Below, one piece after another: positions 20,521 to 60,069 of a stretch of DNA of 64,000 nucleotides. Below the pieces are notes generated by a model, which worked only from the letters and a program-made list of their open reading frames with translations, did not search any database and was not told the DNA's origin. Position 1 is the first letter of the stretch. Every line of letters starts with the position of its first letter. Where the stretch lies: assembly GCA_963971425.1 (NCBI GenBank), contig OZ020524.1, positions 23,303,022 through 23,367,021 on the forward strand, written 5' to 3'. A program made the position numbers and the translations under genes. The stretch is from Bryoerythrophyllum caledonicum. Lineage: Eukaryota; Streptophyta; Bryopsida; Pottiales; Pottiaceae.

Positions 20521-20789
20521 AAAAAGTAAGTTATTTTTTGGAAATTGTGCGATAAAGTAAAACTTCCGAAATATTTTTAGTTGGAAAATATTATTATTAG
20601 TAAAAATGATGGACCTATGACCGTGGAGTAGGATGCATGAATCTTGCGTAGAAAAGGTTGATTTTGATAGTACATGTACCTTATGGTAGAGAAAAGTTGC
20701 ATTTTTCAAATAGAAAGGCCTATCACCGTGATGGTTAGTGTTTTCAATGATGACATGATATAATCTTTTGAGGTTGTAATTATAAAGGA

Positions 20790-30778: not shown

Positions 30779-30780
30779 TA

Positions 30781-31988: not shown

Positions 31989-32999
31989 ATGATGGCAATT
32001 TCAGATGAAATTCGTGCTCGCATCATAGGTTTGAGCGAGGGAGGATTTACATGCGTTCAAATTGCAGCTACTATTGGAGTTCCTATTAGAACAGTTACAA
32101 GGTTAGTAAAAACATTTAGAGAAGATGGAACCTACAAGCGCAAACCTTGCGGTGGAAGTCACGCTAAAAAGCTTAGTGATAGAGATGTTCGTAGTATTGT
32201 GCATTACTCAAAAATTCATCGTTGCTCTTCACTCTCAGAGATTACCAATGCATGTCCTACTCAAGTGTGTAGACGTACTATTCAAAGGGTCTTACATAAA
32301 AATGGCATTTTTAGTCGAATTGCAGTCAAAAAACCTTTTTTGACACCTCGTCACATGTCTCAACAATTAGCTTTTGCTCAGAAGTACCGTGGATGGAGTG
32401 CAAAAGAGTGGGAGCGTGTTGTTTGGACAGATGAATCTACTTTTGAAATTGAAAAAAATTCTCGGATAATTCATGTTTGGAAAAGTGCATACGAGCGTTA
32501 TTCATCAAGTTGTCTAGCTCCTACTTTTAAGAGTGGAAGGACTTCTTTAATGATTTAGGGCACATTTGCCGGAGGACAAAAATCAGAACTTGTCTTTATG
32601 CCTAAAGGTCAACGTTCTAATAAGGATTTTATAGAAGTGGTTTACGATGCCAAATTGGTTCATTTCATGGGTCAAATTCCACAAGGAGTGCTTATGGAAG
32701 ATGGGACACCCGTCCATAGGAGCAAAATATGTGAAGAATGGAGACAAAGCCACCTTCTCGAAAAGCTCAACTGGCCTGCAAACTCTCCGGATCTCAATCC
32801 AATCGAGAACGTTTGGAGGATGTTAAAAGATGTTGTGCAACATGGCAAACAATGCCCTAGAAGCTTAGATGTGTTGAAGGTAGTTCTTGAAAGAGAGTGG
32901 GAGTTAGTCAATGGTACAAAGCTCCTTCAACTATGTCATTCTATGCCCTCTAGGTTATTAGCAGTGATTGACGCTAATGGAGGACATACACGTTGGTAG
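31989..32999 (+). pseudogene. Tc1-family DD34E transposase with one in-frame stop
   Basis: This reads as one frame of 336 residues plus stop, broken only by TAG at 32556-32558 where the family normally has Trp (the MxWGxF block). The N-terminal half has paired helix-turn-helix DNA-binding regions (FTCVQIAATIGVPIRTVTRL near residues 17-36). The DDE catalytic residues are D148 (VVWTDEST), D238 (MEDGTPVH) and E273 (SPDLNPIENVW), with 34 residues between the last two. The enzyme would cut and paste the element at TA sites. The stop codon lies inside the right inverted repeat. The start could be either of two adjacent ATGs. The stop makes it inactive unless read through. Confidence 0.92.
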
Positions 33000-33570
33000 A
33001 TATGGAATAACTTTTTTGTGTACATCTTTTGGCTTTGAAATTTATCCCACATGTTACCAGCGTAGAGATGATCTTGTGCCAAAAATTTCACTATGTATCA
33101 ACAAAAACTCAATCCTAAGGAGGGCGTCAAAGTTGGAAGTAGTAAAATGGTTTTCCCCTTTGTTTCTCAAAACTACACATGTTGGTAGATTTGGAATATT
33201 ATTTTTTGTATGGATCTTTTGGACTTGAAATTTTCCACACATGCAAACAACATAAAAATGTTTTTGCTCCAAAAATTTCATGGGCAAAAACAATTTCCTC
33301 AATTCTTGGGAGGGTGTCAAAGTTGGCAGCTGTGACACTTTTCTCACAGCTATCCCATGTTGGTAGATCTTGCATAAGTTTTTTTATATAAGTCTCCTGG
33401 ACTTGAAATTTGGTATGCATGTTTTCAACATATAGATGATGCTGTCCCCAAATTTTCATGGTAAAATAACAATTTCTCAGCTTTGGGGAGGGTGTCAAAG
33501 TTGGCAGCAGTGTAGGACACTATCCCTGGAACTACTAAACGGCCAATTTGAATGTCACCCTGTTGTACAT
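32984..33570 (-). repeat. Right ~587-bp inverted repeat
   Basis: Inverted counterpart of 30781-31367. Its inner edge overlaps the last codons of the transposase. The three ~175-bp units occur in reverse orientation (TTTGACACC blocks near 33120, 33308 and 33490). Confidence 0.85.
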
Positions 33571-33572
33571 TA

Positions 33573-34134
33573 CACTGCTAAAATTTGGAGTGTAGATGGA
33601 ACTTCCGGGTTTAGCTAAAATTAGTAAATTGGTCCACCATGGTTATAGGCCCAAAGTTCGAACTGCAACAAGTTATTCAATTATATGTATTTTTTCAAAA
33701 TTTTAAATTGGAATGGAAACTAGACTTCATAAGCTTTGTTTTAATATTTGGACTCAAATTCTAAAAATATCCTCTAAATGACTCAAATTAAGATTTTAGA
33801 GCAAAAGCTAGAAGTTTCTAAAATACACTACATTAAGATCCAATGGATAACACTTGTCATGGATTGGGTCAAATTTTCTCCTCCCATTGCTCAATGTTGA
33901 AAACAAACTATGAGTAATTTAACAAGAGAATGCATGCCCATTTGTGATTAATACATTTGTGACTCAAAACTTAAATTGAGACATTTTAGAGTCTCAAATG
34001 AGTGACTTTGAACTCGACAATAGTAGAGATGGAAGTCTCAAACTTTGTGAAATGTCTTAATCTAATGAATATGGCTATAGGGTAGGTTTTTTTGGAGGGG
34101 GGGCGGTGGTTTTGGTTCACTCCACATTACATTA
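33573..34134. other. Spacer between Tc1 element and large nested element
   Basis: AT-rich DNA without a recognised gene. A CCATGGTTATAGGCCC motif near 33637 resembles the subterminal motif of the MULEs. Confidence 0.4.
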
Positions 34135-34731: not shown

Positions 34732-37700
34732 TCAGATCTTATCTTCTGGCGCAACGACTCCTTCCACGTGTCCAATGGCGCTACCTACCATAGCGGACAG
34801 TTCATGATCCTGCACTGGACGATCTCCCACATCTTCGATGCCAATGGACGCACACTCAACATATCGGTAATTGCCACGAACACCCTCCCGCGTATGCCTT
34901 ACGCTATCTTCATTGTAGAAAAAACCATCCTCTGTATTGAAGGACATCTCTCGCTCTAATGAGAATGCACCCTGAAATGCAATGATGTCATCGAATATGC
35001 TAGATCTTAGAACGGAAGGCAAGCCTGGTCCGGTATCACTCTAAGTACCTCCGAACGTCTCTTGTGTCTCCGATACTGGCTCTGATTGAGAAGGCATCAA
35101 AGGTTGTGGAATCCTCCTTTGCACTGAAAAAAATTCCAATGAGTCCAATTCTTCTTCCTCTATCTCCAACCTAGGACCATCAAATGTACGCCCCCCTCCT
35201 GCCCTTGCCGCCAAACTAACATCCACTACACCGATATCTTGCATCCTCTTTGTAGGTGTTGCAGACGTCTTCCCTGAAGTATCTCCCACCGCCCGCTGCG
35301 TTGATGGAATCCTCTCTCTTGGAGGAGACGGGGTCACTTCATCTTCATCGGCGTCTGAAGTCCTGCAAGATGAGGAATCTTCAGTGGTACTTGAACGTGG
35401 CAATCTCTCATGTAAACCACCTCCATCCTCATTGCCATCTTCATTCCTCACTCCACCAACCGCCTCTTCGGTCTCATGTACGATGTTGCAACCAGTATTT
35501 ATTCCACCAATCCTAACCAACAGTTGTCCTTGGAAATTGTCAGACAACTTATTGTACAGGAATGAAATTCTCTCTGTACAATCGTCAATGATAGAAATCT
35601 CTTTCAAGGATCGTGGGAATGGCGGTTGATATGTTACACGCCACTTAACCCCAACCACGGGGCAAATATGAGCCCACTAGTCTTGCCAGCTCTGATGGAG
35701 ATCTCTCAAGTGAATCAACTTCAGAGGGTTGGCGTGCCCCACTCCAGTGATCCAAGAATACAAGTGGAAGTGGAAGGTCTCCAGAAACATACCTCGGGCC
35801 AGGAGATGTACCCACATGGTGCTGCATACAAATCACAACATCGCCAATCGGTTGTACTACTTGCTCCAGACGCCCATTCTCTCTAAAATCGAGAGGATAG
35901 GGATTAACCGAGTTGGGATCAAATGCCCAACATCCACGTCGCATAGTAGATCCCTCGAGAAGCTTCACCTTCGTGAAAAATTCTTCGTTGGTATACACGG
36001 CTGCTAGTAACAAGAAGATGACGTTCCATCGTTCAATATTTTTCATCCATAATGTCAGCTGTGCAAAAGCTGCGGATAGCTGGGCATCTCCCCAATAATC
36101 ATCTCCATGCCTACCACCGCCACGTCGACAATCAATCACCCACAAATATGGTTTCCCCAGCTCTATGTAGTCGGTGCAGAATAATCCTCTTCTACACCGA
36201 ACCGGAAGAAGATTCTCTATGTTGTTCTGGCCTAGCCTCTTGACTTCCATGTGCCATTCCCAATTAGCAGTAGCCAATCCTCCCACATCCACGGACAGTC
36301 CAATGTATCCACGCCCCCCTGCTGCAATGTCACCATAATGAAACCTAATGGAAGAGGGGATGAGGTAGCCTATGTCTTCCAGTTTACACACCTTCCTACG
36401 CACAGGAGCGGTCCAAATTTTTTTTCGTGGTAGTATTCAAAAGCTTTCCAAAGGTATCAAGTTATACGTTACTCCTCGGAAAATACTTTTCTACACGGAT
36501 ACGAAAGAACTCCTCAATGGAATTAGGTGTACTTTCCTTGTTCTACACCATCAACCAACGGATGAAATTTATCAGAACTTCTCGTCTCTGATATCGGTCA
36601 ACCACACCGGCAATCGTACGAGGATGTGGATTCTTGTCTTTTACACCGTGAAAGTAATATGCTTGATGGGGTCTTACTCCATCCTTTGTCACCGGCTTCG
36701 CTGCAGCAGACTTTGCCAATCGAAGATAATATGGATTCGGACCCTACCTAACGGCCTCAACCAATTTAGGGTCATCTCCTTTCTTGTTGGTCGTATGTCC
36801 ACATTTGGATCCAGCTTTTTCTTCCTCGCCATGTCCTTCCACTTGTCCTCTTCCTCCTTGCAGTAAAAGACAATGCCGTCTTCGTAGTCCTTGCATACTT
36901 GAATGATAGTTTCGAAGTAGTCATTGCTCGGATTCCATGCATGATTGATCAGATCCTCTATATTTTTGGCCAACCTTTTCACCGTGACAACTCCATCTCC
37001 CTTGGGCAATTTATGCACTGCACTTGCCGCACTCACCAAAGCAACAGCCCTGCATGTATCGTCCGCACGTAGTGTGCTATCAGGCCTCTCGTATAGATCC
37101 CAAATCTGACGGAGCTTCCTCACATCCTCCTCCATGGTAGAATATGAATGTCTCTGGAACTCCGCCACGTTGATCCGCGCAGACTTCTCAATGTAAAAGC
37201 GACGATCATCATATACTACAAAAGATGCCTCCCGCCGCTCAAACGTGTCTAGCTACTCATTTAATGGCATAGTACCATCTCTCCACTGCTGCTGTGCAAA
37301 CTTACAAGCTGCTACTATGTGTTGCCCATCTACTGGTTTCCAAATGATATGATCTTGAAGCCAAGAATATTGGGATCCCATGGCACCCTCTGCAGAAGCA
37401 CTCCCGTGTACAATGAATATGCGCTCAAACTCTCGTGCGATTCCTGCCAACGGAAATGACAACTCCTCCTTCTCAACGACACCATCATCAGTGGTAGTAT
37501 GTACGATGTATCTGATCGGTCGAAGTACCAATCTACTCACCCGAGTTGCGGATTGTGGATCTTTTAAGCGGTTAAATACTTCTCTGACCCTCTTCTGTAA
37601 TAAAACCCGATGGTTCGTTTTCGGATTCTCCACAGATATAATGCGGTCTATGTGTGCCTTAAACACAAAATTCCCCCACACTGATCCTTTTGCAATCTCC

Positions 37701-38693
37701 TCCGTTGTAGGCACTGGTGCTTTTAAATACATTGAAGTTGGAACATCTTGTGGTATTTCGGCATTGACTTCAAATTCCTCTGGAACACTGTCAGAAAGCT
37801 TGTGAAACTCTTCTTCCTCCGGCGCCATGGCTGATAAATTAGCTAAATCTCTCGGTGTAGATGCAGGGGCCCTACGATGGCCATCAGATGTCCTGAGCTC
37901 CGACCTACAAACCCTGCTCCGGATCTTACACTTCTCCCAATCAACTTCCTCGCGCTTGGTTTCAAACTTGTTGGCTTTCTCTTGAACCAGAAGCTACATC
38001 ACTTTCAACACGCCGTGGCCTCTTCGTAGGACGTCTACTTGTTAATGGATGATTCGGTAATGTCTGTACCTCAGAAGCTGTGGTCGGATGTTGGCTTCCA
38101 CTTCCCCTCCTTTCCTTCAGTGGTCGCCAATCCAATTGCAACGGCTCAGCAAGAATTCAATAAACTTCTGTTTCTTCTGGTTCCGCTGGTGGGGCTTGAG
38201 TTGTCGCACGTGATGGGTCCCTCTCACGAAATGCCTCATATCTAATATGTTCCTCCATAACCTTCTTAGCCTTCAGCACCATCTCTGGTGATAACGCTAA
38301 ACAAGCTAAGACGTTATTGTGTCTAGCAGTACGTACCGCAAGAGAGATGTTCAACCAAAACGTCTGCAATGATTTGAAGAATTTCACTTGACTTGGATTT
38401 TGAAGAAGATTCAAAGGAACAGATGCAAGAAGCAACTTTTTCGAAAGAGAAGTCTTCACCTCCGATTGACCTGGACCCACTACGCAAGTAACGTATACCA
38501 TATCATCACGTCGAAGAGTGATTGCCTGGATTTTGCCAAAACTCTTCCCCAACGCCGATGTACGCTTCCTCAGCTCAAAGGGATAATCCATCACCCACAA
38601 GAAGGCGTTCAACTCATCCACTTCCGCAATCCACCAACCGTGGCTCTCCCAAATTCTGTCAGATATTTGGTGGTGCCATAACGCAACACTCAA
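34732..38693 (-). pseudogene. ParB-like (DGQH) gene with possible methyltransferase-like part, decayed
   Basis: A long minus-strand coding region with several breaks. From the N-terminal side: 38693-38157 (WWIAEVDELNAFLWVMDY); a basic linker (KRPRRVESDVASGSRE near 38030); then 37828-36689, which reads through one TAG at 37253-37255. This part has WKPVDGQHIVAACKFA (about 37310-37340), resembling the DGxHR motif of ParB/sulfiredoxin-like domains, followed by FVVYDDRRFYIEKSARIN. After a damaged stretch, 36403-35645 has PYLWVIDCRRGG and HGDDYWGDAQLS blocks, possibly a degenerate motif IV region of a beta-class DNA methyltransferase. A one-base shift near 35650 leads into 35658-35041, then past TAG at 35041-35043 to 34732. 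ParB-like is moderately supported; methyltransferase-like is tentative. Confidence 0.5.
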
Positions 38694-38724
38694 AAAACCT
38701 GTATATCATTACAAAACGATAGTC

Positions 38725-43155: not shown

Positions 43156-43164
43156 ACTGTAGAA

Positions 43165-43260
43165 GGGGAATGCTATCTTGCAAGCGGTGAGCGGTGAGCG
43201 GTGAGCGGTGAGCGGTGAGCGGTGAGCGGTGAGCGGTGAGACGCGAGCGGTGAGCGGTAA
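43165..43260. repeat. Left terminus of MULE C with GCGGTGA array
   Basis: Terminal GCTATCTTGCAA is followed by eight perfect GCGGTGA units (43184-43239), a variant GACGCGA, then two more near-perfect units. The same unit occurs at the other MULE ends. Confidence 0.9.
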
Positions 43261-43757
43261 GGGGTAAAAACTTTGAAGTTCAGGGACGTCTAAAATGTTA
43301 CTGATAGTAAATTGAAAGGGACCTAAAATTCTATAATAGTCTATTACCTAAAAAGAAACAGAATAAATTTTTAGATAAGACTCAAGAAGAAGAGGTTAGA
43401 GGGAACCCTATATGTGCAGACGTTCTTCGTTGTTGGAAGCCACAAAAATGTAATTGGAATTAGAGTATACGGTGACACCCGGCAAAACTCCTACGATATC
43501 CGTTCGAAGAAGTGGATATCGGAGTGTTAGCAAAGGTGCATAGATGGTAAACTGTCAAAACTAAGGAAATTAGTAATACGAGACATTAGGAATGGTGTTG
43601 TGGGAAGAATATTGTGCTAGTGAAGGCCTTAACCGCAACGAAGGAAGAGAAATATGTAAGAGTGCATAGAACAAAGAAATCATATGAGGGAAAATGCATT
43701 AAATGGTAAGTCACAAAGAAACTTGTTGCCAAGATAGAGGCAACGCAGGAAATGTAT

Positions 43758-46699
43758 CTAGGAAGAAGAGTTACAATAACTATCCGACGATGATAGGAAA
43801 ATGTCGGACTCCTCTAAAGCCTCGAGATCAAGGAACTCATTGAAAGTAAAACCAGAACTAGAGGAAGTGGAAGTAGACAAAGGGGACACGACATTTGCCA
43901 TCTGGTGTGCAGCTTGGCCCGCATACGAAGGGAGACAAAAATCTCGATCCGGTGAAGCTGCCAACGCCATCAAAGTGAATGCAGAAAGCAAGGTCACAAA
44001 TTAGTCTGAGTGAATGAAGAAAGTACAGAAGTATAACTTAAAATTCAGACTTACTTACTCAATCGATTTCTCTTGGAGATCTTGCGGATTGGGGGATCAT
44101 CATCAATGGTGAGGTCCACGGAGTTGGGTTGAATGGAACTGGATTGGGGAGGCTTCAACATAAAAAGTGGCTTCAACACCACCTCAAAAACAGCCTTATC
44201 GGATTCAAAGCCAACGAAATGCCGACCAACAGCGCGACATGCACGAAGGGAGTTTCCTAAATGAGTAGAAAATGTTAGAACTATTGACACAATTTATGAA
44301 AGAGGAAAATACTTTAGTGTGAAAGTATACGAGAAGGTGAAGCCATACCTGTAGATGCGAATGCATCGAAGATCACAGCGCCAGGTTTAGTAAGGGCCTC
44401 GAAAAGCATTTGGTAAAATATGATGCCCTTCTCACGTCCAGCCCTCCATGGAACATTTCCCCGCATAGTCTGGATAGTTAAGTCGTTGTGATTAAGTAGG
44501 ACATCGGTCTCTTCCACTCCCCAACCAGTCTTTGACAGCTGCGCATTCACAATGTATGTGAAGGATCCCAAGGGTAATGCGTTCCTCACGTAAAGAAGGA
44601 TCCGAAAACGGTGGGTCTGTAAAACAAAAGACAAGGCAAAAGAACAAAATTAGGTGGAACGTGAATATAAATATGAAGCATCTCTCTCAAAAATGATCAC
44701 GAACCTTCTTTGACGGATCAGTGGGCAATGCCAACGGTAATTTGTTAACACCCCACCACTCGCGAAGTAACTTGAACTCGTAGGTTGCAGCGTATGACCG
44801 GACGTCGGTGCGGATCTGCACAGACTCAGGAATAACAACCATAATGCATCCCTGTTCATGAAGGAACGAATCAGCAAATTCAAAGAGGGCCTCAATAATC
44901 GGCTCAGCATAAACATTCCAAGATGGAATGTCTTTTGCATCCTGCGAAATCGATGGAACCCAAAGGCCTTCAGGAATGTCCCCGAGGATGAGATCGAATC
45001 CTCGGTGAGGACATGTTGCGCTGCGGGCCGGGTTCGAACTGGAAGGACACACCTGCAGGAGTAAGAGCAAATTCAAATTAGGAGTGAAGGCAAAAACTGC
45101 ATGGCGGAAAGTACTCCTCTTCAAACTGGATTTCAGGTGTGGACATACTACATGGACCAGTTTCCCACAGAATTCCAGTGGACCATAGTAATGAATAAAT
45201 TCCATGGCTCAAGCATACAAATGAAAATGAAACTGAGTAATTAGAACTAAAATTGCGGAATTAGAGTGCCGCCAACGGCACTTCACCAACCAACATATAG
45301 GCTGTAGTCAATGAGAAGCTAATCCGTTTGAAGTAATATACTTGGTTCAAGCATTTACCTTTAGCATGAACTCGATGAGTCGAAGCATGCAAGGGTAGTC
45401 TTTTCCTCCATTCATCAAATCTTGGAGAGATGAGAGCTCCACTCTAATACCCATCTTGGAAGCTGACACACTCGGTGGAGAGAGGCGTCATGAAACGCCT
45501 TCCTTTTAACCACCGAAGGCTGATTTTTAGGAGAGCTCGGAATATCCAAAGATGCTTCAACATCTGGAATGCTCTCCTCAGCAGCTGGAGCAGACTCTTC
45601 CGCGGAAACAGCAGAGGGAATGAGTACCTCAACAACAGGGCCAATCGATGAAGACCCCCGAGACTTCTTTGCAACAGCTTTGCCCTTACCATTCGATTTG
45701 GTTGCGGTGGCAGCCGCTTGGGCAGGGGTCTCCACGCCAATGGGCTCTGGCTGAATGCTGTCTCGCAGTGCAATGTCGAAATGTGGTGGGCTCTGAACTG
45801 GGCAGTCTAGATACCAGCTGCACCGCTCCCAGTGTTGAGGATCCCAATCATTTTTTATTCCCTCTGAGATCATTGTAGACGGGCTCTTGGGATCCAGGTA
45901 GGACGCAAAGAATAGAAGATTGCGTGTCACGGCCCTTGCCGGCATCAAAATGAACTTAAAGTACCGATATAAGGTACGCCGCAATGCCGATGGAAATCCG
46001 CATTGATCTGCAGGTTCATAGTTTTTGTGAATGCCCCTGTCCACGTTGAACTCCCGAAAAAACGCAGTATCCCACAGCTGAATCCGTTGTTCCTCAATAT
46101 AGTCCGAAATTCTAGTGATTGGCTCTCCAACAGCAGGATCGTAATTGACGTCAACACCAATATCTAGCAATGAGCCTTCCAAGAGCCGCTCCGCTTCGTT
46201 AGAGAGCTGCAAAATGAAAGAATTGAGTTAGAATGATAGTTCATATTGGAATAAAACGAAGTCTTACTAGAGGAAGAGTCCCTACCTGAGCCCACCAAGT
46301 AGCGCGGTGAAGCCATTCAGGGAACTCACTATCGGGAAATTTTGACTTGGGAAACCTGAGTGATTCTCGAAGATTGCCGTCTCTATTCCAACGCTGCAAC
46401 CATTTGACTTTCATAACACGGTCCATGGCGGATGTTGCAAGCATACAAAGCTTCTCTTGAGTCATCTCGGAGTCGTCTTCACGAGCTTCGTAATGCAGCT
46501 TCACTTGTGTGAGAAATCCAGGTGTCATGTGTTTGGGATTGGCAACTGGAAGCTGCTTCCGTAGCTCTGAAAGGGTTGATAACTTCATCTTCTGCACTGC
46601 TTTTCTTACGAAGTCTTGAGCATTTGTGGAGGTCCATTCCTTGGGATGTGGAAATCTCTCTGCAAATTTCCTTTGGGCCACCGCAGCGCCCTCTCCAAT
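43758..46699 (-). pseudogene. Beta-class DNA-methyltransferase-like region of MULE C gene
   Basis: Minus-strand exons with good GT-AG sites: 46699-46286, 46206-45359, ~45205-45149, ~45055-44705, 44616-44349, 44256-44054 and a tail exon ending at 43758. The motif order fits beta-class amino-methyltransferases. Motif IV-like DLILGDIPEGLW lies near 44965-45000. Then comes PWRAGREKGIIFYQML, followed by motif I FDAFASTG (near 44350-44375) joined by splicing to NSLRACRAVGRHFVGFESD. The expected DPPY/DPPW is DIPE, so catalysis is uncertain. An acidic Ser-rich tail follows, with LPSYAGQAAHQMANV. A frameshift near 45480 separates the KRKAFHDASL frame from the ASKMGIRVELSSLQDLMNGG frame. The substrate is unknown; DNA (adenine N6 or cytosine N4) is inferred from the family. 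Confidence 0.7.
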
Positions 46700-47099
46700 C
46701 TCTTGTTGTCAAAATGACAACAAATTTGTCAAGCACAGTTAATAACTCATATGGAAAACCGTAGCGCATACAAAAAAATCAAACAAGAATCAGCATTGAG
46801 AAAAAGCCGCTAGCCGCTGGCCATGATTTCTCCCCACCTAAAAAATGAACGGTTGGCATTCAACAACAATTTAACAAAGGGCTTCAAAACTAACATACTA
46901 TGGAGTATATTATTTTTGCCCATTTTGTACCCCCCTTAGCATACTTATGCCCCAAGCCCATAAAGCGCACTACCCTTTAGGTCACGTGACATCAAAGGGA
47001 ATAGTTATAGTGCAGCAGTTGGCCAAAAAAATGTGTTGGAAAAATAGTCAGGACAGATTCGGTATGGCAGTACCGGCCTACCCTATGAGCTTAACGACG

Positions 47100-47900
47100 A
47101 TAAGTTTGAGGAAGAGTATGGGAATGAATCAATGAGGTAGAGTAAGTGAGAATGAGTGAGGGAGAGTCATAGACAGGGACAGTGAGGGAAAGTAATTCAT
47201 GGTCAGAGTTTGTAATTGGTAGAGTTAGGGAGAGTCATGGATAGGAAGAGTAAGGGTGAGGGAGAGAAGGGTGAGGGCAATGGAGAGGGAGTAAGGGAGT
47301 GGTATTGTTGTGGAATGAGTATACGAAAGGAAGAGAAGAAATAGGGAGAATATGAGTGACGAAGATTACTGGAGAGAGAAAGAATCGGTGTGAGAATAAG
47401 AAATCGGAGCGTGAGCTTGGGGTGTGCCGGCAGCGGCACACCTCCACAGCACCAATCTTTCTCAACTAATCATGGCGCTATGGGGTGTGCCGCCACCGGC
47501 AGACCCTCTGCCGGCAGCTGAAGCTTAAGCTTGGTGACCATATTGGAGAGAGGGAGACCAAGGGAGAGGGAGAGTAAGAAGTCGAGACAGTCAAGGAGAG
47601 GGAGACCAAGAGAGTAGGAGAGTAAGAAGTCGGGACAATCAAGGAGAAAGAGACCAAGGGAGAGGGAGAGTAATAAGTCGGGACAGTCAGGGAGAGGGAG
47701 AGTAAGGGAGAGAGAGAGTAGGGGATGAGGGAGAGTAAGGGAGAGGGAGAGTTAGGGTGAGGGATAGTTATGAAATGTAGAGTAATTAGTTGGGACAATA
47801 GGAAGAAGGAGAGTAAATGAACGGGACAAGAGAAGGTCGGGTTGGGACAGAATAGGGGTTGCAACGAGACAGTAAGGAGACGGGTCAGTGAGGGGTCGGG
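47100..47900. repeat. Purine-rich minisatellite in MULE C
   Basis: Degenerate units such as GGGAGAGGGAGAGTAAG and AGTCGGGACAGTCAAGG repeat over about 800 bp. It lies in the probable intron between the ParB-like and methyltransferase-like halves. A similar tract is in MULE B at 20790-21310. Confidence 0.65.
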
Positions 47901-48395
47901 ATAGTAGGGACAGTAAGGGACACTGAAAGGGAGACTGGTGGGTGCACAGGGGGTGTGCTGGCAGCGGCACACCCTCGCAGCGCGTTGCTTAAACAGCACA
48001 GCGCCATGCTTAGCTGTTTAAGCATAGCGCTGTTGGGGTGTGCCACTGCCGACACACCCCTCGTTCACTCGCCGGAGCCAGCGATAAATGGCTGAAGAAA
48101 ACGTCTCCAAATCCGAATAGAGATTCAGGAGTGCACTCAGGGGGTGTGCCTGCAGCGGCACACCCCCACAGCGCCATGCTTAGCTGTTTAAGCATTGCGC
48201 CGTGGGGGTGTGCCGCTGCCGGCACACCCCCTGCTCACACACCAAGGCCAACGAACCGAAACTGAAATAATCCAGAGTCAACGAGCAACATTAAGCATGC
48301 GAATTGATGTACCAACATTTAGCACGCGAATTGAAGTAGCAGCATGAATTGAATAGCAGCTTGGTGCCATGGAGGTGTGCCGCTGCCGGCACACC
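47421..48395. repeat. Cluster of seven 22-bp palindromes
   Basis: The core is stem GGTGTGCCG, loop CTGC, stem CGGCACACC, or its reverse complement. Copies are at 47421-47442, 47484-47505 (imperfect), 47952-47973, 48037-48058, 48143-48164, 48207-48228 and 48374-48395. Four more lie at 50307-50328, 54316-54337, 54383-54404 (imperfect) and 55024-55045. Between some copies lies a second inverted repeat, CAGCGCCATGCTTA with TAAGCATAGCGCTG (47989-48033; 48168-48203). None is in an exon. Confidence 0.85.
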
Positions 48396-48464
48396 CCCAA
48401 CGCACGTACTTCAGATAATTAAGACATTATTGCAGAAACTTCAACTCAACAAAGCCATATGATA

Positions 48465-50030
48465 TTACTCATCAAAATACATTATGTCGTTCTCGAATGT
48501 GCCCTTCCAAGGTAATATGACAGTAGGCGACAGGACTTTAATCAACCTAGTATCCCCATCAATTACAAACTCATAAGTTGAAGAAATTTCAGAATCAGTC
48601 TCACCTGATATAGAACAGAGTTCAAGGACTTCAAGGTCAAGGTATACCACGTCCGCTTGACGGAGTTCTGCTTTGCTTCAGCTGCATTGATTTCCGCTTT
48701 TGAAACTAGCTTCTCAAAATAGTTGAGAGGCTGCCCCGCCATACCTAGAATTCGGTATAGCTTATGAACTAGATTTGTCGTAACGAAAGACTTCTGATTT
48801 CGCCTGAATAGAGGTATAAAAAATCCATTAGAATACAGTCTACAGGTGAAAGTCAATTGATGGGCATGAATATCAAGTATTCTTACCAGTTTTCTTAATG
48901 TAGTGCCGTGAGGAGGACTGGAACATATCCATTCACGTTCAGCAGAATTGACTCCACAGAATAATGCCAACCGGGGTCTTCACCATGGTCCCGATTTATT
49001 ATTGGCAGCCATGCCTGCAGGCGATGATTTCCATCCTAGACATGGAACATCTTTCCTGAGAAGACTCTCAAGTCCGGGTCGGCATTCAGCTTCAACTCGA
49101 AAGCTTCGTTAGCAGCAATCCACGCCGGGCTCCAACCCTTGAGGACGTCGTCAGAAACATCTACTGTCTTACCCACGTGATTCTCGGCTGCAACATAGAA
49201 CACACCAGAGCCCTCCATGTAACCGTTCCTAAGAAAGTGTGACCCCAGCCCCATGACATCGTTCTTCAAGTGTGGTCGAATGATTGGTAGTCCAATCATT
49301 CGGCATAATGGGATGTTAAGCTTAGACTTCTCCTTAGGCTGAAATCGAAGTCCATCCAGAAGTGCAGTCGTGTTTACGATCTCCTTTAAAACAAGATCGT
49401 CCATCTGCTTCTCCAAATCCGTAGTAGATAGTGGCTCTGTTGAAGTTCAAACAAGTTTTGACACTTCTACAACGTCCTCACTTCCGCCCCATCATCATTC
49501 AACTGTTCACCAAGTGCAATTGCTGCCAAGAATGAAATTTTGGTGTTAATATCACATGCCAACTAAAACTTTAATTCAATTCAATAACTTACCTAATGGC
49601 TGCAATTTAGAGTTGTGAGTCTCCATTTTAGTGTCAACTTCGTCTCCGCGAACTGAAACCTCAGACTGGCTCTCCATTTCTACAATGACAGATGAATCAT
49701 ATTAGTAGGATTGATAAAATAACTCAGAATAATATGAATGTGAAACCAAGTCCTGGTAAAAAAATAATGATCAAGAGCTTAACAACAACCTCCATCTGAA
49801 TTTTAATACTTCAAGGCTCAGTAGACTGGCTGCGAGATCTTCACATCAATATGCACATCTTCACCAGAGACATCACTAGTAGGTTTATGACAAACAGAAC
49901 TACGACCTAGATGAAGGACGGGCTGTTCCAAAATTTTAAAGAAAAAATTGAAATGGCGCTCCGCAAACTTCTCACTCCACAAAAACATCCCCAGTTCTGA
50001 GTATTGCAAGAAGTAGCGCCAGTGCTTCAC
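48465..50030 (-). pseudogene. ParB-like (DGNHR) region of MULE C gene
   Basis: The main exon runs from about 49436 to 48887. It contains LGSHFLRNGYMEGSGVFYV, then KGWSPAWIAANEAFELKLN, then DGNHRLQAWLPIINR (DGNHR at 49035-49021). The order of a hydrophobic strand before DGxHR and a helix after it fits ParB/sulfiredoxin-like domains, which bind DNA or hydrolyse nucleotides in known families. TAG interrupts at 49036-49038 just before DGNHR, and TAA at 48895-48897. The next exon is 48803-48605 (VHKLYRILGMAGQPLNYF). A possible upstream exon is near 50030-49818 (KHWRYFLQYSELGMFLW). Splicing from 48605 to 46699 would be in phase 0, so this and the methyltransferase-like region may be one gene. It could also be a separate gene. 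Confidence 0.6.
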
Positions 50031-50588
50031 AAAATTTCAGTGCTATTCAAGAATAACCTCATCAGTTTGCTGATTGAGACTGACTGACTAAAGAGCGTAA
50101 AAATCTGTCTGAAACGAGCCGACGTTGATGGTTGTAGACGTTGATGGATGTCTGAAACGAGCCAAGGTTGTCTTCTCTTCCGACCTGTCCATGAAGTCTG
50201 TCGACATAGACAGAGGCTTCGCAGACTATTCAGACAATTGACGATCTACCTTATCAAGAGCAACATCCGTGATCCTACTACCGTGAAGCTGAACACTAGA
50301 GCAGAAGGTGTGCCGCCGGCGGCACACCCTCCCATAATTCCCTGTCGACATTGACAGGCTCTCGCGGACGGAGTGCCAATTAAGGTAGACCCCTCCACGC
50401 TTCAAATTCCACAAACCCTAAACCCCTAAAACAAAGAACAACTCTAAAACACCATTATTCTCAACCAAAAGCACGCAAGACGAATTCACAAAGCCCTATT
50501 CCACGAAATCTAAGGCACATGAAAACCCCACAAACAAAGAGGAACCCAGAATACCAAAACATGAAATCATTAGCAAACAAAGAAATAC

Positions 50589-50747
50589 CTGTAGAGCGAC
50601 GTGCCGAACTAGCTTTGGCACCGTCCATCTTTGACTGTCCACCGCACGCAAGCTCCTCGTCGACTCCCGTACGCTCTTCTCCTCCAGCAGGTCGTTCACG
50701 ATCGCACTGACGTTCCACACAATCGCCCTAGCGATCTTCACGGCCGC
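50589..50747 (-). pseudogene. Candidate upstream exon of the ParB-like gene
   Basis: A 159-bp minus-strand open stretch (53 codons) bounded by a pyrimidine-rich CAG acceptor (50750-50748) and a CAG/GTATTT donor. It includes IVNDLLEEKSVREST. There is no recognisable domain and no proof that it belongs to the same gene. Confidence 0.3.
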
Positions 50748-50750
50748 CTG

Positions 50751-52071
50751 GAAGCAAAAAACGAATAGTCTAGTTCAGATTCCGCGGGTCGACACCATGA
50801 TCGAAGTCCTACGCATTTCAGAAGTTAGTTCAGACAGAAACCTAAACCTTCACGCAAGTAGGCCAGTATGCACCCACAAAAGCCGCCCTGAACCCTAAGA
50901 CGTCCGCTTTATAAAATGACAGAGTACCAAAGTTTAAGCGACGTCACTACCTAAAATCTCAACTCATTAAGTCACAGTTGCACTCCCATCACAAACAAGT
51001 TTTTCCCAGCAATCACCTTTTAACATGTTATCAATTTACAAACTACTCAAATCACATGTCAATCACAAAAGTACACATGCCTAAAGAGATTGCGGCCAAT
51101 CCTCGCCACTACCTGAGTTTGTTGTCAATTCCCTGCCCTCATTCATTCCACCATCATTGGTTTCCTCCTTGAATTGACGGCTTCCATCATAACATTCAGG
51201 AATTCCAGTTAGCTTAGCACTATTCTGTCTAACATCTCTATTCTGAACTCCATCAATCTCTAATCTCTTGGAAGTTTCAGGAAAGGATTCATTGGACTTC
51301 CCCATAGCCATGCCTCTCATTTCTCTACTTCTCATCAATGTTCTGCGATCACTAAAATAGAGCTTCTGCTTTCGTCCTTTCATAACACAAGAATCACATC
51401 GCCAAAGTTCAACCTCTCTAGGGCAAAAGTAAAGGATACATATATTGTGCATGTCTTGTAAAGAAGTAAGCAGGGTCATTTTAGGGTGACCCTTGAAACC
51501 CTCAAGTTCCCATCATAAGCAAATCAACCGTCATGTACTTGATATTATTATTGTTGTTCATTAATTTGTGCCCAACTGATTGAGCCGGCTACTTCGAGCA
51601 TTAATGCATCAAACCGCCAAAGCAATATTGAATTATATTCACATGGCCATAATGTAGCCAAACCGCCAGATTCACACTTTCTGAGAGCCACCATATTTTA
51701 GGCAACATCGTCATATCCTATAAAGAATCCATTGTCATAAATCCATGGTACCACACCTATGTCAATTCAATGTGTTACTGTTGATTGTATTCATAATCCC
51801 TGATTTGGATTGTTCTCAATCAGATTTCGGACCTTCCAATTGATTCTTGTTTTCATAATGAAATCGATTTTTCTTAAGTTTCCATTAATTTATGTTCAAT
51901 ATTTACGGCGGAAAAGATTTATTGGCACATTTCCTGACAATCTGTGCGCCTGCAATTGCTCTGAACACTCCGGGATATCAATGTGCCACCTATTCACCTT
52001 CCTGCCAGTACATGAGGCACCCCTTCATTTGTTGTAGTTCTCTTCTTTTGTAGCTTTGTTATCGGATTAGA
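50751..52071. other. Region between the two divergent arms of MULE C
   Basis: The minus-strand gene and the plus-strand transposase diverge from here, so promoters for both are likely. A minus-strand open stretch at 51479-51081 (WRCDSCVMKGRKQKLYF) is not recognised. No clear TATA or terminator can be assigned. Confidence 0.4.
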
Positions 52072-54422
52072 ATGGCTTCCTTGGCAGATTATGTGGCGGG
52101 ATCCGTCGTCATCCGTGGAAAGAGTGGAGGCGTCCCAATCTATTACTCCACTGATACTGAGGGAATGGCGAGTGTTAGTTCCCTTCAATTAAGTCAGCGT
52201 TTCCATATCAATGAGGGGTCCGTGCATGTTGAAAAAGAGGAATTTGATGAGTACACAGGGGAGCTCACACACACTGTGGCTCAGTTATCATGTACTCGAA
52301 ACAATGCAGTAGTCTGGTCATTGCAGTGTGGGAAATACAGAGTGTATGGAGCTAGGGATAGTCCAGACGATTCGCCTACAGTTTCCTTAACACCCAAGTT
52401 GTCTACCGCAGCATCACAGGTGACTCCTTTGCTGCAGAAAGTGAAATTAGAACCGGTAGAGAACTTCATTCACATCCTCAGCGATGAGTCCGACAATGAT
52501 AGTCTAGGATTTAGTCCCTCTGAATCCGAGAAGAAACCGTCACTTCCTGCCATGCCTCCGCCCGTAGTTGCGTCTTCCACTCTTCCTCCGAGATCAAAAC
52601 CCACAGTGATGCCTAATCTTCTTCCATTTTCTAGTACAATCCACTGTTTATGTAATCTTCAGTCTCGATCCAGATCAAAATTTGTTTTAACTAAGTTAGA
52701 TTTTAATTCCATTAGAGTTGAGAAGGTGGAATTCCTTCCACCATCGTTTAATGGAGATGTCATTTTTGAGCTTCCAGCCATTGGGAAAGGAACTTCCCTA
52801 TCACAGGCTGGATCGCTCCTGGGCATGGATAAGAAACATGACGGTCATAGTTGGACAAGAACCATGACCACTCACATTGCGAATGATTCCAACCTTACCT
52901 TCAGGACATCTTCATGTTTGGGACATTTGCAATGTCTTAATCCTCATTGCAAATACTTAGAGCGTAAGCCTAGAGCGTCAAACGTGAATGAGACGGAATG
53001 GGAGGGCACCTCGTCATCTGTTTTTGGTGTTGGTGATGATTCTCCAGCTGGTTCTAGAGTTGTCTGCAAACTTTGCCGAGTTCAGCCTACCTACTTAAGA
53101 ACCTGCCCAGCCAAAATTCACTATGTGCTGGGGAAGGACACCATGTCCCGTTTATGTGTCCATATTGGAACACATGAGCATCCTGTCAAATTAGGCAACT
53201 ATCGAGATTCCTCCTCGAAGCTGAAGACCCTCATTTCTGAGCAAGTAGAGCGGACCCCAACTGCCACAAACTCTACCATTATTTTGGAAGCAAGTAAGGA
53301 GTTTCTGGGTGAGCTTCTGCTGTGTCCAGAGGGAGTTTCACAGAAGCCACTAGTCTTAGAAGAACTAGTTCCGGTCTTGGAGAAATTTAAGCAAATGACA
53401 TCTCCCAGTATCCGAAACGAGGTTACCACTTTTAGATACTTAAGACGCTTTGGTGTAATGGATAGCATCACTAAACTTCGAGGATCAAACAACTGGGCTT
53501 TTGTACAGGAGAATAGATTTCCTGGTCAAGGCGCTGATTCGGACAAGGTGTTTGTATTTAAGATGGCAGAAGTTGGTCCTGGCAGCGGAGTAGATCTTGT
53601 GAAGCGAATGCAACTCAGAGGAGACCTTGAAGATTCATGGATCATGTTTGACCATGTCAAACGAGTGAAGGGATGGACCACGATGGGTTGTCACGTGTAC
53701 GATTCAACCTACTGCCGTGTCATGACGATTGTCGTCTGTGACATGCAATCCGAGGACGTCAAAGCTCAGCTAGTGTTTTGGAAGAACTTGAATGCAGTTG
53801 CTGCACGACACAATGTTTCGACAGTTTCATTCAAGGGATTCATGGCTGATAGTGCACAGGCCAACTGGAATGTAGTCCGGATTCTCTACGGGAGCGGTGA
53901 TGCGTCAGTACCTATGGACAATCGGGAGTGAACGTGCCTATTTCACTGGACTCAATCCCTTGAAAAGCACACGAAGGCTGACATTAGAGCCGGCCTTCAA
54001 GAGCAACATCGTCAGCTTTGCAAACTGTACAAGGATGCAAAGACAATGGAGGAAGCCGAAGCAAAGTACTTGGCAATCAAAGCGTGGTGGTTATCGTCTG
54101 GCGCAACATCTGATGCTGGTGCCGTACGTCTTGATTTATGGCTTGCCTTCTGGCATTTTCGATATCGACAATGGGGTGGGTTTATGGTATCAGTATGTTC
54201 CTTCTTCATTCATGCCACATATCTTTATAGAATTCTTTTTTTTTAAGTAATATATCATGTTATTGTCACATTTTGATACCAATGTAATGACAATCTGGAT
54301 CATGCTAGCTGAGAGGGTGTGCCGGCAGCGGCACACCTTTGCTGGGTAGACCTCGACAGCGAGTCTTGTACCACTTGTTAAGGGTGTGCCATTAACGGCA
54401 TACCTACATCTTGTGAGTCTTA

Positions 54423-54622
54423 NNNNNNNNNNNNNNNNNNNNNNNNNNNNNNNNNNNNNNNNNNNNNNNNNNNNNNNNNNNNNNNNNNNNNNNNNNNNNN
54501 NNNNNNNNNNNNNNNNNNNNNNNNNNNNNNNNNNNNNNNNNNNNNNNNNNNNNNNNNNNNNNNNNNNNNNNNNNNNNNNNNNNNNNNNNNNNNNNNNNNN
54601 NNNNNNNNNNNNNNNNNNNNNN
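54423..54622. other. Assembly gap of 200 N
   Basis: Exactly 200 N, probably a scaffold gap of unknown true size. It lies in the predicted transposase intron. Confidence 0.99.
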
Positions 54623-54780
54623 CCCAAATGCTGCGCGCGCGGTCCGAAGGCACGCGCCCGCCCCTTGATGTGACGTGGAAAGCCGTCTGACGTGTCGTGC
54701 ACACGTGTTTTACCAGGGGGTAAGTTGAAAATTTGATTTAGGGTTCGTAATTTTTTTTTACACGCAACTGTCCGCCAAAA

Positions 54781-54853
54781 AGTGCTGTCCGTCCTGTCCG
54801 TCCGTCCTACTGTCCGTCCGTCCGCTGTCTTTGGGCCCCTGTCCGTCTATGTA
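54781..54853. repeat. GTCCGTCC tandem repeats
   Basis: CTGTCCGTCCGTCC-type units recur irregularly over about 70 bp in the transposase intron, just after the gap. Confidence 0.7.
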
Positions 54854-56685
54854 GACAACCCTGGGTATCCTTTACAACTGATGCTCCTTCTATCTCTTCT
54901 CTTTTCGAATATTTTCTCTCACCAGAGCAATTTTCAATTGACTTCCAATTTCTTCTAAACCTTCAGTTACCAGTTTCCAAGTTTTTTAATGCAGCAAGCC
55001 CGTGTCATTGAGCTTGGATAATGGGTGTGCCGCTGCCGGCACACCTTCCTCTGGTTCGACCTTTTTTTTTGTAGTAGCCTTACTAATTCTTCCTTTTCTT
55101 TAAAACAGACCTTGAATTTTACATGTACTTTTTACTACGTTGTCTAGCTTTTCCGTCTTCCTCTAGTAGATTGGTCGCAATCCCTATTTCATGCTTCATC
55201 TTTTACAGGTTCATTAATCAAATTTTTTTTTATTGAGGTCTGCAGGAACTTTCAGATTCTGAATTAGCTGAAATGCCATCTTGCAATTTAGCGGAGATTG
55301 TCCACAATAAGTGGTTGCAGCAGTTCGGAAAGCGTGGTAATGATTTATACGTTGCCACTGTTGATGACATGGTTCAAGCATTCGTGGCTTGTTATCAATT
55401 CTCGAAAGGAGAGCGTGGAGGGCAAGGGCCTGGGAAGGAAGAGCTTCGTCTTCGTGCTGCTCAACGCATTTCTCAACGTTCGGGAAACTCCAAAGCACTT
55501 CATGAGGCTTTCTGCAATATGCCTGGAGCTGCTGAGTTTTGCACTCGCCCTCCGCATTTGAAAGGAGAGGAAGTCTTCTTGTCCCTGAAACGGAAGCCAG
55601 ACCTTCCTCCTGGATCTGAGTTCGATTCTCATCGTCCGAACAAAATCAGCGTTTCACGTCCAAGGGTCGCGACAAGGGCGTCTTCACGAATATCCATTGA
55701 CCTCACTACTGACGAGTGTGTGTTTTCAGCAGTAGGGGAAGCTCCAGCCAACCCCGCCAATTTCCCTCGAACAGAAACGTCAATACGGGTAACCCATATT
55801 GTGGGTGTGTTGGAGACTCCTTGCGACGAAAGCAAATGGCATATTGCAAGGCTGCCAAAGACATGAGCTAAAGCATGTTTTGCTCAACAGGCTAATACAA
55901 AGAAAAAGTGTATTGCTCGAATTGTGCAGAACAACAAGAGTATTGCCGCACCGACCTACAGTGGCATGATGAAGAACTATCAGAAGACGAGGATTGATAA
56001 GATGGTTTTTTTCTTTTCTAACGATGACATCAATCGCTGTGTGATGGGATCGAAGAGGGACTGGGTTATTTCTAAGCCACCGGTTCCTGACGTTTGGCCG
56101 GTGAAAGTTGGCACGTCCCGTATGAAGGCCAAGATTCTACGTCTTGGAAATGCCGGTTTTCGACTTGCCGAGCGCGTCATGCTCTCTCCCTGGAAGTTGT
56201 TCTCTCAGGATGGTGTATTATTTGACTTGAAATCTGTTCATACTCCGGCGAACTAAGATGAGCATCCGAAGTGGAGATTTGGCAAGAACATTCGTCGGAA
56301 TCCGAAGGCCCCAACCACGAGACATTGGAACACCTGCGCATCTGTGCTTTTTGTTCTTGGAAAAGTCAGTAACTTTCTAATGCTCCCTGACCCCGCGTTT
56401 GGCTGCATTCTCTCGTTCAAGTCCAAATCCATTACTAAGGTTTCAAACTACATGCTTTCTATCAGTCAATTTCCTAGTTGTGACTGTCTGTCTTTCAAAG
56501 AGATGTCCAACAAGTCCCTTGGCAGACGTCCTCAGTGGTGTTACTGCAAACACCTTTATTTTATCTTCACCATTGTTTGTGAGCTAGATTCGGAGGTGGA
56601 TGTCTTTATGCACGCCCCTAGTTTTAGCTTCAACGAGATTAAGCGTGTTCTCGAAGTCTTGCTTCAAAAAGAGGGCTGCACCTAG

Positions 56686-57377
56686 TCTTTGAGTTCACAA
56701 AGTATCATGTGTAACTGTTTTCTATAATATGTAAGAGATGGTGAGACTACTGGGCCACCGCTGTATTGGCAAGTTGAACTGTTCTTCATTCGCCGAGTGT
56801 TTTTTTGTCACTCTCTTTTCTCACTTTTTCTATCTTCACGTTTTTCCCTCATTTTTTCACTTTGTTTTTTTTTTTTTGTCTTTTTTTTTTTTTTTTTTTT
56901 CAGACGTTTTTTTTCTTCAGTTTTTTTTTCCTGCAGTTTTCTTTTCACTACTTTTTTTCACCGGGGTTGGTGTCGATCTTGCTATTGCCTACTAAAGTCT
57001 GTCTCGTGAAGTACAAGATTTTTGAGCAAGGAATCGAACCCTAGGGCCTAGACCTTATTCTTCTTGTTATTCGGCACTATCCTCCGGGTAGTTATGGTCG
57101 TCTCGGACCGTCGTTCATCCCTAAACCGAAAACACTTCTTAAAGGACCCAAAACCCTGTTTCAGGTCCACGGTCATTTATGTGAAATTGTACTGTTGTTT
57201 CATCGGTCGTAAGGTCGTCTTGGAATCCTTATTTTAGATTATGTTTCGTAACATAATTTTCAGCTTTTGTAGTCTAATTACTATTGTATAGTAAAAAAAA
57301 TTCTTCTGTATTGTTAAAAAGTTACTTTCATATATGGAAAAAGTGACAAATTCCAAAAAAAGTTACCAACTTTTTTC
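56686..57377. other. Right subterminal region of MULE C
   Basis: Contains long T-runs (about 56780-56960) and otherwise AT-rich DNA after the transposase stop. Short frames here come from the poly-T tract. It probably includes the transposase 3' end. Confidence 0.5.
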
Positions 57378-57516
57378 TCACCGCTCACCATTCACCGCTC
57401 ATGTCTCACCGCTCACCATTCACCGCTCATGTCTCACCGCTCACGTCGCAACGCTCACCGCTCATGCCTCACCGCTCACCACTCACACCTCACCGCACGC
57501 AAGATAGCTTCCTCCG
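57378..57516. repeat. Right terminus of MULE C with inverted GAGCGGT units
   Basis: CTCACCGCTCACCATTCACCG-like units repeat about ten times with variants (ATGTCTCACCGCT, ACGTCGCAACGCT), ending in CGCACGCAAGATAGC and TTCCTCCG. The array is more degenerate than the left end. Confidence 0.85.
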
Positions 57517-57525
57517 GCTGTAGAA

Positions 57526-60069
57526 CCTGATATCACAGGTGTCCATGGTGACATTGGATCACAGATAGCACCTACACAAGTGATGGCCCCAGAGTTTGAT
57601 TTTCCTGAGTTCATCAACACATCAAGATCCACCAAGAGGTCTCGACGCAGTAGTCATGCTTCAAACGCCATAGATGAAAATTCCCCGTTTTCCCAATCTA
57701 TTCCCTCAAACATCCGAGATTTGCCCCATGTAGATGGATTTGCTTATGTTAGACCAACACGTCGTCCCTATTCTATGCAAAATAGGAGAAGGAGAGATTC
57801 AAGAGAGCCATCATTGACAGAAGCTGCACCAGCTAAGGTATCGTTTAGAAGTGTGCAAATTGCAATGGCACAAGGAGTATACAAACGCAATTGTTTGAGG
57901 GACGTCCAACAAGGTATCTATTGGACATGCGATATAATGCATGGTCTAATGAGTTTTCAGTACGAAGTACGTGGATGAGACAGATGCTAGTTTCATTTTA
58001 CACAAGGACGGAAGGAACTCGTCGAGACAAGTTTGTAAGAAAGTTAGATGGAAAACAAGTTTGCAATGCTTGCTACGCTCTTGGGGTTGGATATCCACAG
58101 AGGTGCTTTAAGCAATTGAAGAAGGACTGTCTAATATATGGAAGAGTGACATCGATTCACGGCAATATCCTTTCAGATCCGATCAGAGAGAGCACTAGAA
58201 TGTCTGCGGCAGAGGCTTGCTTTAAATCGTTTGTCGATGAAGCTGGTTGTCCTCAACCTCATCGTTGTATTTGCCGTAAGAGTGACAACGAAGTGGTGCC
58301 TCTCATTCTCCTTCCTACGAATACAGCCAAATTTTATGTATTCAATTACGTGAACGAGGAGGTCAAGAGAATTTGTAATGGGGAAACCATTTCTATGAGT
58401 TCGTTCCGGAGGATGTGGCGCATCAAGTATCCCCACGTTCAGGTACCTCCATTCTCGAGATTCTCAAAGTGTTATCATTGTTGGGAGTATAAATGTGCAA
58501 TGGAGGAACCACCAATGCGGATGCAAAGATAGAGATAAAGGAATTGTTTATGTTGTATTTGCGCAACCAGATGGAAAAACGTAGGCATTATTGGATATTG
58601 AAGAGGTCGTATTATATTAGCCCTGAGTTGTACATGTGCATCATAGTGGATGGCATGGACCAAAATACGACCATGGTACCGAGGATGCGGCAGATTGTGA
58701 AGAACATTGAACATCGGTTTGTGAAGACCCATCTGTATGGTGCTCTTGTACATGGGATTGGTTTATATTGCGACGTGTGGTTTGGGGCTCACCACGAACA
58801 CGATAGCAACCAAGTCGTGAGTATATTGTTGTACGTGATAGGAGATGTGTTGCGGAGGAAGGGCTTTTTGCCACCAACATTGCGAATCCAGGCGGACAAC
58901 TGCACACGCGAGAACAAAAACATTTATATATTTGCTCTATGTGCTACATAGGTGGGATTGGAGTTTTTTCAGGAGGTGGAACTATCTTTTCTTATAGTGG
59001 GCCATACACACAAAGATATTGATCAACGCTTCAGTTGTATATCAAATACGTTGAAGAGGTCGGACGTGGACTCGTTAAAGGAAATGATGAGTCTTATAGA
59101 ACGAGGAACATCTCCTACGAAAGCATTTGTTAGCGCCCGGCTGCTAGAGAATGTATAGGATTGGAAATTGTTCATAACTCCTCACTTATTGACAGGTCAA
59201 GATTCATTGGTGGGCATAACATTTCCGCACCACATGCGATTCTACATGGACAATCGAGAAGGGACTCGTGAGGTTCGAATACAACACAAGCATTATTGCA
59301 AGGATCCATGGGGACCGGAGGCCGGGACGAAAACTTTGAGGTCGTTGCCAAGTAGGGAAGAGCGACCATCGTTTGCGGAAGTTTGTGGAGTGGACGTACG
59401 GGAGTTGAAGGCGTTGGATGACTTCATTGTATATAAACAAAGGTGCATTCAAAGATTGCAGCATGAGGACAAGAATCGTGAGGCAAAAGTAGAGGCTGAA
59501 AGATTGAAACTCTATTTAGTTGAATTTCCACACAAAGAATATAGCAATGAGCATCATTCCTCACCGTTTTGGCCTTCAGAGTTCTCCAACAGCGGACCTA
59601 CAGAGAGTGCATCTTTGGATGTAATGGATGGTGCAAGTGAAGAAAATCGCGAGATAGATGTCGTAGAGCAGGTAGTGGCGATGCTTCCAAATGCCGAGGC
59701 TCGAGGATAATTTGGTCCTCGTAGAGGAAGACCCTCTAATTATGCACTACGCAGGACATAACGAATAGAGCGCAATTATGTTGAAGAAAGAGCCGAAGAA
59801 GGAACATGTATGAAGATAATCACGATCCATTTCCACCATTTAATCCACAATTTGATATCTGTTGTGGAAAATTTGTAGCCTTGAGTGTTGATCGAGTAGA
59901 AATAGAAGGCGGTGTACCATTCTATGTGTGGAAAGTGATTGAGGAAGGAAAAAACCGATGGAGACTTAAGATAAAGGTTTGTTGGTATTGGCCCATCATC
60001 CAAAAGGGGGTTGTTGATGGACATGGGTCTTCTACACAGCGGTATGCAAATTGCATGGACTCATTCTAG
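57526..60069 (+). pseudogene. 3' part of DUF7869-like transposase gene
   Basis: This continues the frame of 42904-43155. The first open part runs to about 57880, then the frame shifts into 57891-58532 (FVRKLDGKQVCNACYALG, a Cys-rich region). A second shift near 58500 leads to 58493-59710, which reads through TAG at 58949-58951 and 59156-59158. The core has VDGMDQNTTMVPR (near 58650), LRIQADNCTRENKN (near 58890) and VGHTHKDIDQRFS (near 59000). These blocks are typical of the RNase-H-like DUF7869 family found in many mobile-element-like proteins. After the stop at 59710, 59806-60069 encodes FVALSVDRVEIEGGVPFYVW, a small beta-rich domain also seen with this family. Its assumed role is transposase of the large element. 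The damage makes it inactive. Confidence 0.7.

Follow-up and report, generated by a model that had tools for sequence, protein, structure and literature searches.

The stretch examined here, a 64,000-nucleotide window from the moss Bryoerythrophyllum caledonicum (assembly GCA_963971425.1, contig OZ020524.1, positions 23,303,022 to 23,367,021), contains a transposon with two genes: a transposase and, on the opposite strand, a gene that joins a ParB/sulfiredoxin (Srx)-like region to a DNA-methyltransferase-like region (the ParB-methylase gene). The transposon, Mutator-like element (MULE) C, occupies 43165 to 57517 (14,353 bp), has terminal inverted repeats (GGGGAATGCTATCTTGC followed by GCGGTGA repeats), and is flanked by an 8-bp target duplication, CTGTAGAA (43157-43164 and 57518-57525). 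About 4 kb to its right lies MULE D (16,477 bp), which starts at 61253 and ends beyond the window, at 77729 in window numbering, with GCTATCTTGTGAGCGGTGAG at both ends and a 10-bp target duplication, GAATTATAAT (61243-61252 and 77730-77739). A 20-bp end pattern is exact at both termini of C and D, and the terminal inverted repeats are identical at 84 of 98 aligned positions in C and at 42 of 43 in D. Target duplications were perfect for all four MULEs found here (A 9/9, B 10/10, C 8/8 and D 10/10 bp); random pairs of positions reach an 8-bp duplication in 0.36% of cases. In both C and D, the 3′ end of the ParB-methylase gene lies near one terminus and the opposite-strand transposase ends near the other, so that the two genes stand head-to-head. 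Matching ends, target duplications and this arrangement place the gene inside a MULE-like element, as a first-pass annotation of the sequence had proposed. The MULE C transposase has a first exon at 52072 to 54210 on the plus strand, interrupted by an in-frame TGA (53929-53931) and matching the transposase of a database relative, L013, at 43.9%, and a second exon region at 55198 to 56418, also on the plus strand (39.7% to L013, E 2e-80). Between C and D, the transposases share about 44% identity and the methylases 27%. Excising MULE C yields a 259-amino-acid open frame across the junction, and the element therefore inserted into coding sequence beside a gene with a DUF7869 domain. That gene is at 57526-58951, its upstream coding frame split by MULE C.

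The first-pass annotation had named four motifs on the minus strand of MULE C, and all were located there: DGNHR, a Box II-like (P) motif in the ParB exon (49035-49021); DIPE, motif IV-like (44980-44969); FDAFAST, motif I, whose final G is interrupted by an intron (44370-44350); and GRHFVGFESD, within the exon 44256-44051. The minus-strand exons comprise a ParB/Srx-fold exon (49446-48898, of which 49446-49036 precedes DGNHR up to an in-frame TAG), a second exon (48602 to 48787, TNLVHKLYRI...VLYQ), a middle-region exon (46286 to 46701, EIGEGAAVAQ...WWAQ), a middle and linker exon (45359 to 46206) and three methylase exons, the first holding DIPE (44705 to 45052), the next PWRAGREK (motif X-like) and FDAFASTG (44349 to 44616), and the third RACRAVGRHFVGFESD and a basic tail (44051 to 44256). 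A likely last exon with an acidic serine-rich tail, comparable to exon 7 of the relative L002, spans 43758 to 44000, its frame uncertain. There was no support for placing the 5′ end of the gene at 50030; a first exon with an ATG near 49677 is likely, though uncertain. This copy of the gene is decayed. One in-frame TAG (49038-49036) abuts DGNHR at a position where most relatives have a Trp, another stop lies at 48897-48895, and frameshifts are probable near 49480 and 45480. Short palindromic repeats around GGTGTGCCGCTGCCGGCACACC are clustered at 47400-48410, inside an intron of the gene.

We then considered whether the ParB and methylase halves belong to one gene. The relative L002 has seven exons, six GT-AG introns and no interruption of its coding sequence; it encodes 1,136 amino acids with ParB first and methylase last, and the composite assembled from copy C matched it in a single colinear alignment (1047 columns, 25.6% identity, E 2.7e-89). 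The MULE D gene (minus strand, 66550-62473, of which 62473 to 64000 lies in the window) extends beyond the window; it has seven exons with GT-AG introns that match those of L002 in order and content (1,161 codons; 57.8% identity over 1133 aligned residues), a sole internal TAG at 63492-63490 and a motif IV reading DVPE at 63741-63730. Two predicted Ceratodon purpureus proteins were found among the relatives of the ParB exon, and a predicted protein of that species, P0113, spans the ParB exon, the next exon and the 48605-46699 junction (VLYQ then QELGEQ), which supports the splice on which the original proposal of a single gene depended. From these alignments, the two halves are judged to form one gene. 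The full-length composite found nothing at E≤0.001 in 5.8 billion proteins (7996 candidates scored), probably because its relatives are stored exon by exon. In the database, L002, L003 and L013 belong to a cyanobacterial bin, G001 (an uncultured Synechococcales genome). We infer that they are plant DNA and apparent contamination of a public bacterial bin, since all three look like transposon genes of plants and L002 and L003 contain spliceosomal introns. The basic tail of L002, KRPLEVDDDEPEVKTAPKRRC, resembles what we take to be a nuclear signal. The ratio of nonsynonymous to synonymous substitution (dN/dS) between L002 and L003 was 0.107 over 882 codons (methylase 0.108, middle 0.067, tail 0.66, with a stop in L003 within the compared tail), which shows apparent constraint on the protein between these two relatives. 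Between D and L002, the ratio of 0.118 overall has little meaning, dS being saturated at about 2.9, and no dS value could be obtained for the ParB part or the middle part.

The ParB exon gave an AlphaFold model with a predicted local distance difference test score (pLDDT) of 92.4, and the closest PDB structures found by Foldseek were ParB, Srx and Noc; the fourth-ranked BFVD match was an annotated phage DNA methylase (E 0.016). On this model, the N-terminal domain has a ParB/Srx fold, in line with the ParB/sulfiredoxin-like setting first suggested. The fold is invisible to sequence profiles: Pfam ParB matched none of 41 family members, the PHROGs ParB match for L002 was weak (E 0.25), searches of Pfam, NCBIfam and PDB sequences with the exon or its profile returned nothing useful, as did a scan of viral contigs with the ParB alignment, and phage tblastn gave one weak match. 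Pfam also reported no ParB partition domains (helix-turn-helix, ParA-binding or dimerization) in the exons scanned. Similarity within the family is not due to chance, because 108 relatives were found for the ParB exon, all at E 7e-11 or better, and 5 for the methylase domain. DGNHR was read in 90 of these 108 sequences (some of them fragments), DGNYR in 3 and DGNHW in 1, the motif being unreadable in 14; DGNHRH was present in 20 of 20 genomic loci. Read from the alignment together with the available text of PMC12704722, the DGNHR stretch appears to be ParB Box II with its conserved Arg, a residue whose change to Ala abolished nucleotide binding (PMC12704722).

The C-terminal half was assigned through sequence profiles. 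The spliced C-terminal 273 amino acids of copy C scored 28.4 bits against PF01555 and so passed the cut-off of 26.7, a piece of D (12.6 bits) and the predicted protein P0002 (14.7 bits) fell below it, and PF01555 did not match the main exons of L002 and L003, which do not include the last methylase exon. The top PDB relatives of the copy C domain were DpnA and CcrM. HHalign against ten viral amino-methylases gave 97.5% (E 6.8e-12), with one reversed and five shuffled controls all at or below 1.05%, and the match spans motif IV to motif I, the order of the beta class; the beta-class layout initially noted is thus upheld. A tblastn search of phage with the L002 methylase returned 35 records, some annotated as methylases, with a best E of 0.1. 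Among the 20 genomic loci, methylase motifs were readable in the 9 on the coding strand, eight with DVPE and WRGAREK and one unmatched; seven "DEPE" matches belonged to another reading frame and were set aside. Judged by these profiles, the C-terminal domain is an amino-methyltransferase homologue. The structural comparison suggested at the outset held for the ParB fold and failed for the methylase, whose AlphaFold model was unusable. A middle region without an assigned fold lies between the two domains.

To find further copies, the genome was searched with the 546-residue main exon of L002 (79 of 3363 candidates scored) and with the transposase (62 of 3241). Among the best 79 methylase matches, which lie on 14 contigs, 78 cover the whole query and one covers 544 residues, and 51 are free of stops, so the intact copies that the first-pass annotation had proposed to look for do appear to be present. 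Among the matches listed, 23 of the 79 have a transposase within 15 kb, and all 23 pairs are head-to-head at 3.9-7.5 kb; random placement gave a mean of 0.08 such pairs, with a maximum of 2 in 2000. Six copies, hand-picked from the 79 and all with an open main exon, were inspected with 26 kb each. Five carry a transposase and both ends, and in four the target duplication measures 10-12 bp, with element lengths of 12.6-15.5 kb; copy C14_12.60 also has two extra transposase fragments on the other strand. Identities to the nearest copy of 99.5-99.94% (seven loci giving a comparison) point to recent spread. These data show a many-copy, two-gene family that looks recently active and in which many copies look intact.

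Other features of the window include MULE A (-1652 to 7420) and MULE B (20449-29423), which are 99.94% identical over 6.7 kb and have different target duplications (TCATCTACT and CCCACTAAAC); because of this combination, the pair is read as showing that a related element, one that lacks the ParB-methylase gene, transposed recently. A Tc1/mariner-like element at 30778-33573 has 562-bp arms that are 98% complementary and a transposase fragment with HTH_Tnp_Tc3_2. A candidate third ParB-methylase at 35041-38705 (long minus-strand frames, VDGQH by eye) was dropped for want of similarity to the family. Rfam and tRNA scans found nothing.

Taken together, we consider it almost certain that the ParB-methylase gene has been correctly identified, and we lean slightly toward the overall reading, in which a plant family of Mutator-like DNA transposons has this as the second of its two genes and the encoded protein would act in trans on the element's DNA. 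Several observations weigh against this reading. MULEs A and B have related ends and a transposase with no trace of the ParB-methylase gene, and 39 of the best 62 transposases are without a listed head-to-head methylase, a missing partner in these lists meaning little. In copy C1_10.15 the transposase was not found and one end only was seen; in C6_27.58 both ends are present and no target duplication was found. Neither L002 nor bin G001 as a whole contains the element end pattern, and the transposase of that bin sits on a contig other than that of L002. Regarding the transposase itself, the best Pfam match of L013, Transposase_mut, falls below the cut-off (E 0.038, 13.3 bits against 21), and Pfam gave no Transposase_mut match on the window copies; in D, a SWIM-like CxC...CKH stretch was noticed on visual inspection alone, and Pfam reports no family there. 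For the protein, Foldseek with the ParB model found nothing at E≤0.001 in PDB and BFVD, the L002-L003 comparison leaves out the ParB exon, which L003 does not cover, and the AlphaFold model of the D methylase domain was poor (pLDDT 42.8) and was discarded. Finally, the active site is altered. Motif IV reads D[VI]P[EK] in all nine relatives whose sequence extends over it (D[VI]PE in eight, DVPK in one), so that the catalytic [DNS]PP[YFW] motif of PF01555 is not matched and the aromatic residue is missing, and the first Gly of motif I is replaced by Ser in the relatives that cover it. With the search pattern used, 8 of the 10 viral enzymes have D[LP]PY and the other two are unmatched.

These changes bear on what the protein might do. 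It could be an active DNA base modifier that adds a methyl group to adenine (N6) or cytosine (N4) of the element's DNA, as a self-mark read by the transposase or the host. Homology extending across the methylase domain, retention of the REK motif X-like lysine and of the motif I region, constraint on the domain between L002 and L003, and the known architecture of phage ParB-PF01555 fusions (PMC12704722) argue for this, yet the uniform motif IV change argues against it, as does the loss of N4-methylcytosine (4mC) when the SPPY Ser and Tyr of the rotifer enzyme N4CMT were changed to Ala (PMC8885841); we regard it as unlikely, and real base methylation by the protein as doubtful. A pseudo-enzyme, in which catalysis is lost and the methylase fold is reduced to DNA binding or base flipping, in the service of targeting or as a helper in transposition, would fit a domain that is still constrained after both changes have become general. 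On the other hand, the motif IV Asp and second Pro, the TG of motif I (IG in one relative) and the lysine are conserved as if binding of S-adenosylmethionine mattered, and we hold this alternative to be possible, short of probable. A changed active site would also suit an enzyme whose substrate is RNA, a protein or a small molecule, for example one that modifies host silencing factors. SerK and Srx, in which the ParB fold serves as an ATP-binding module, are enzymes with targets other than DNA (PMC12704722); given that the named profile relatives are DNA methylases, such a substrate seems improbable.

A chance capture of host gene fragments in the manner of Pack-MULEs, with no role for the element, would account for the decay of copy C and for the absence of the end pattern from the contig and bin of the constrained L002, and MULEs do often capture host genes (PMC6446971). 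However, elements with methylases as divergent as those of C and D carry the same gene, identically placed and oriented, pairing with the transposase head-to-head recurs across the genome among the matches listed, and element D holds a seven-exon gene with a single stop. The outcomes named beforehand as fatal to the proposal, that neither fold would be matched or that the halves would prove to be two unrelated captured host genes, did not come about. Chance capture is thus largely refuted and very improbable.

A role of the ParB-methylase as a DNA-acting anti-silencing factor or transposition helper is, in our estimate, evenly balanced. The ParB fold would bind nucleotide and act as a nucleotide-gated switch for loading onto DNA, the basic tail suggests nuclear import, and the protein might work in trans on element DNA, where the methylase fold would bind or modify bases near the element ends. 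The element would then stay expressed and mobile despite host silencing, an effect like that of VANC, or its ends might be prepared for the transposase. A more speculative version, which we think rather unlikely, is a phage-style modification or counter-silencing system in which the ParB switch would load the methylase-derived domain on the element's own ends and the D-x-P-E site would make a base modification or base-flipped state undescribed in plants, allowing escape from silencing. To our knowledge, few MULE accessory genes are understood, VANC, an anti-silencing factor, being the best known. An accessory gene of bacterial or phage design is carried here by many element copies, most of those listed with an open main exon, and gives a direct, testable route to asking if DNA transposons of eukaryotes modify their own DNA or shield it. 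Our leading guess is anti-silencing, since transposons are silenced by DNA methylation, which VANC proteins counteract in the case of VANDAL MULEs (PMC10398659, PMC13317346, in the text available); help at the ends during transposition comes next.

In the open-licence papers searched (a scope that leaves subscription papers, preprints and Repbase aside), none was found to describe a eukaryotic transposon with a ParB-methylase, consistent with the earlier remark that the architecture is not known from plant MULEs; the two-gene MULE-like element is unusual and, within this scope, new. As far as the available text of each source goes, the following systems come closest. Phage fusions of a ParB-CTPase fold to an N6_N4 methyltransferase (PF01555) are surveyed in PMC12704722 (PNAS 2025), so the phage side of the precedent first cited for this gene is a described one; the main text of that survey contains no occurrence of "plant", "moss" or "transpos". 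The moss gene resembles these fusions in having both folds in one protein and a link to mobile elements, and differs in being eukaryotic, intron-bearing and carried by a DNA transposon; its product also has a long middle region, the D[VI]P[EK] motif and a basic tail. MULEs with the accessory genes mudrB, mutB, vanB and vanC (PMC6446971, PMC10398659, PMC5735166, PMC13317346) likewise carry a second gene beside a Mutator-like transposase and make target duplications of 8-11 bp (PMC6446971), but their accessory proteins are not described there as methylases or ParB folds, and "methyltransferase" does not occur in the text of PMC6446971 or PMC13317346. Dinoflagellate and charophyte retrotransposons also bear a DNA methyltransferase, for which self-methylation has been proposed (PMC5890265); theirs are host-derived C5 cytosine enzymes, whereas the moss case, assigned by homology, is a bacterial-type amino-methylase in a DNA transposon. 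Bdelloid rotifer N4CMT (PMC8885841) is, like the moss protein, a bacterial-type amino-methylase in a eukaryote, and differs in its chromodomain fusion, its intact SPPY and its laying of 4mC at transposons within silencing.

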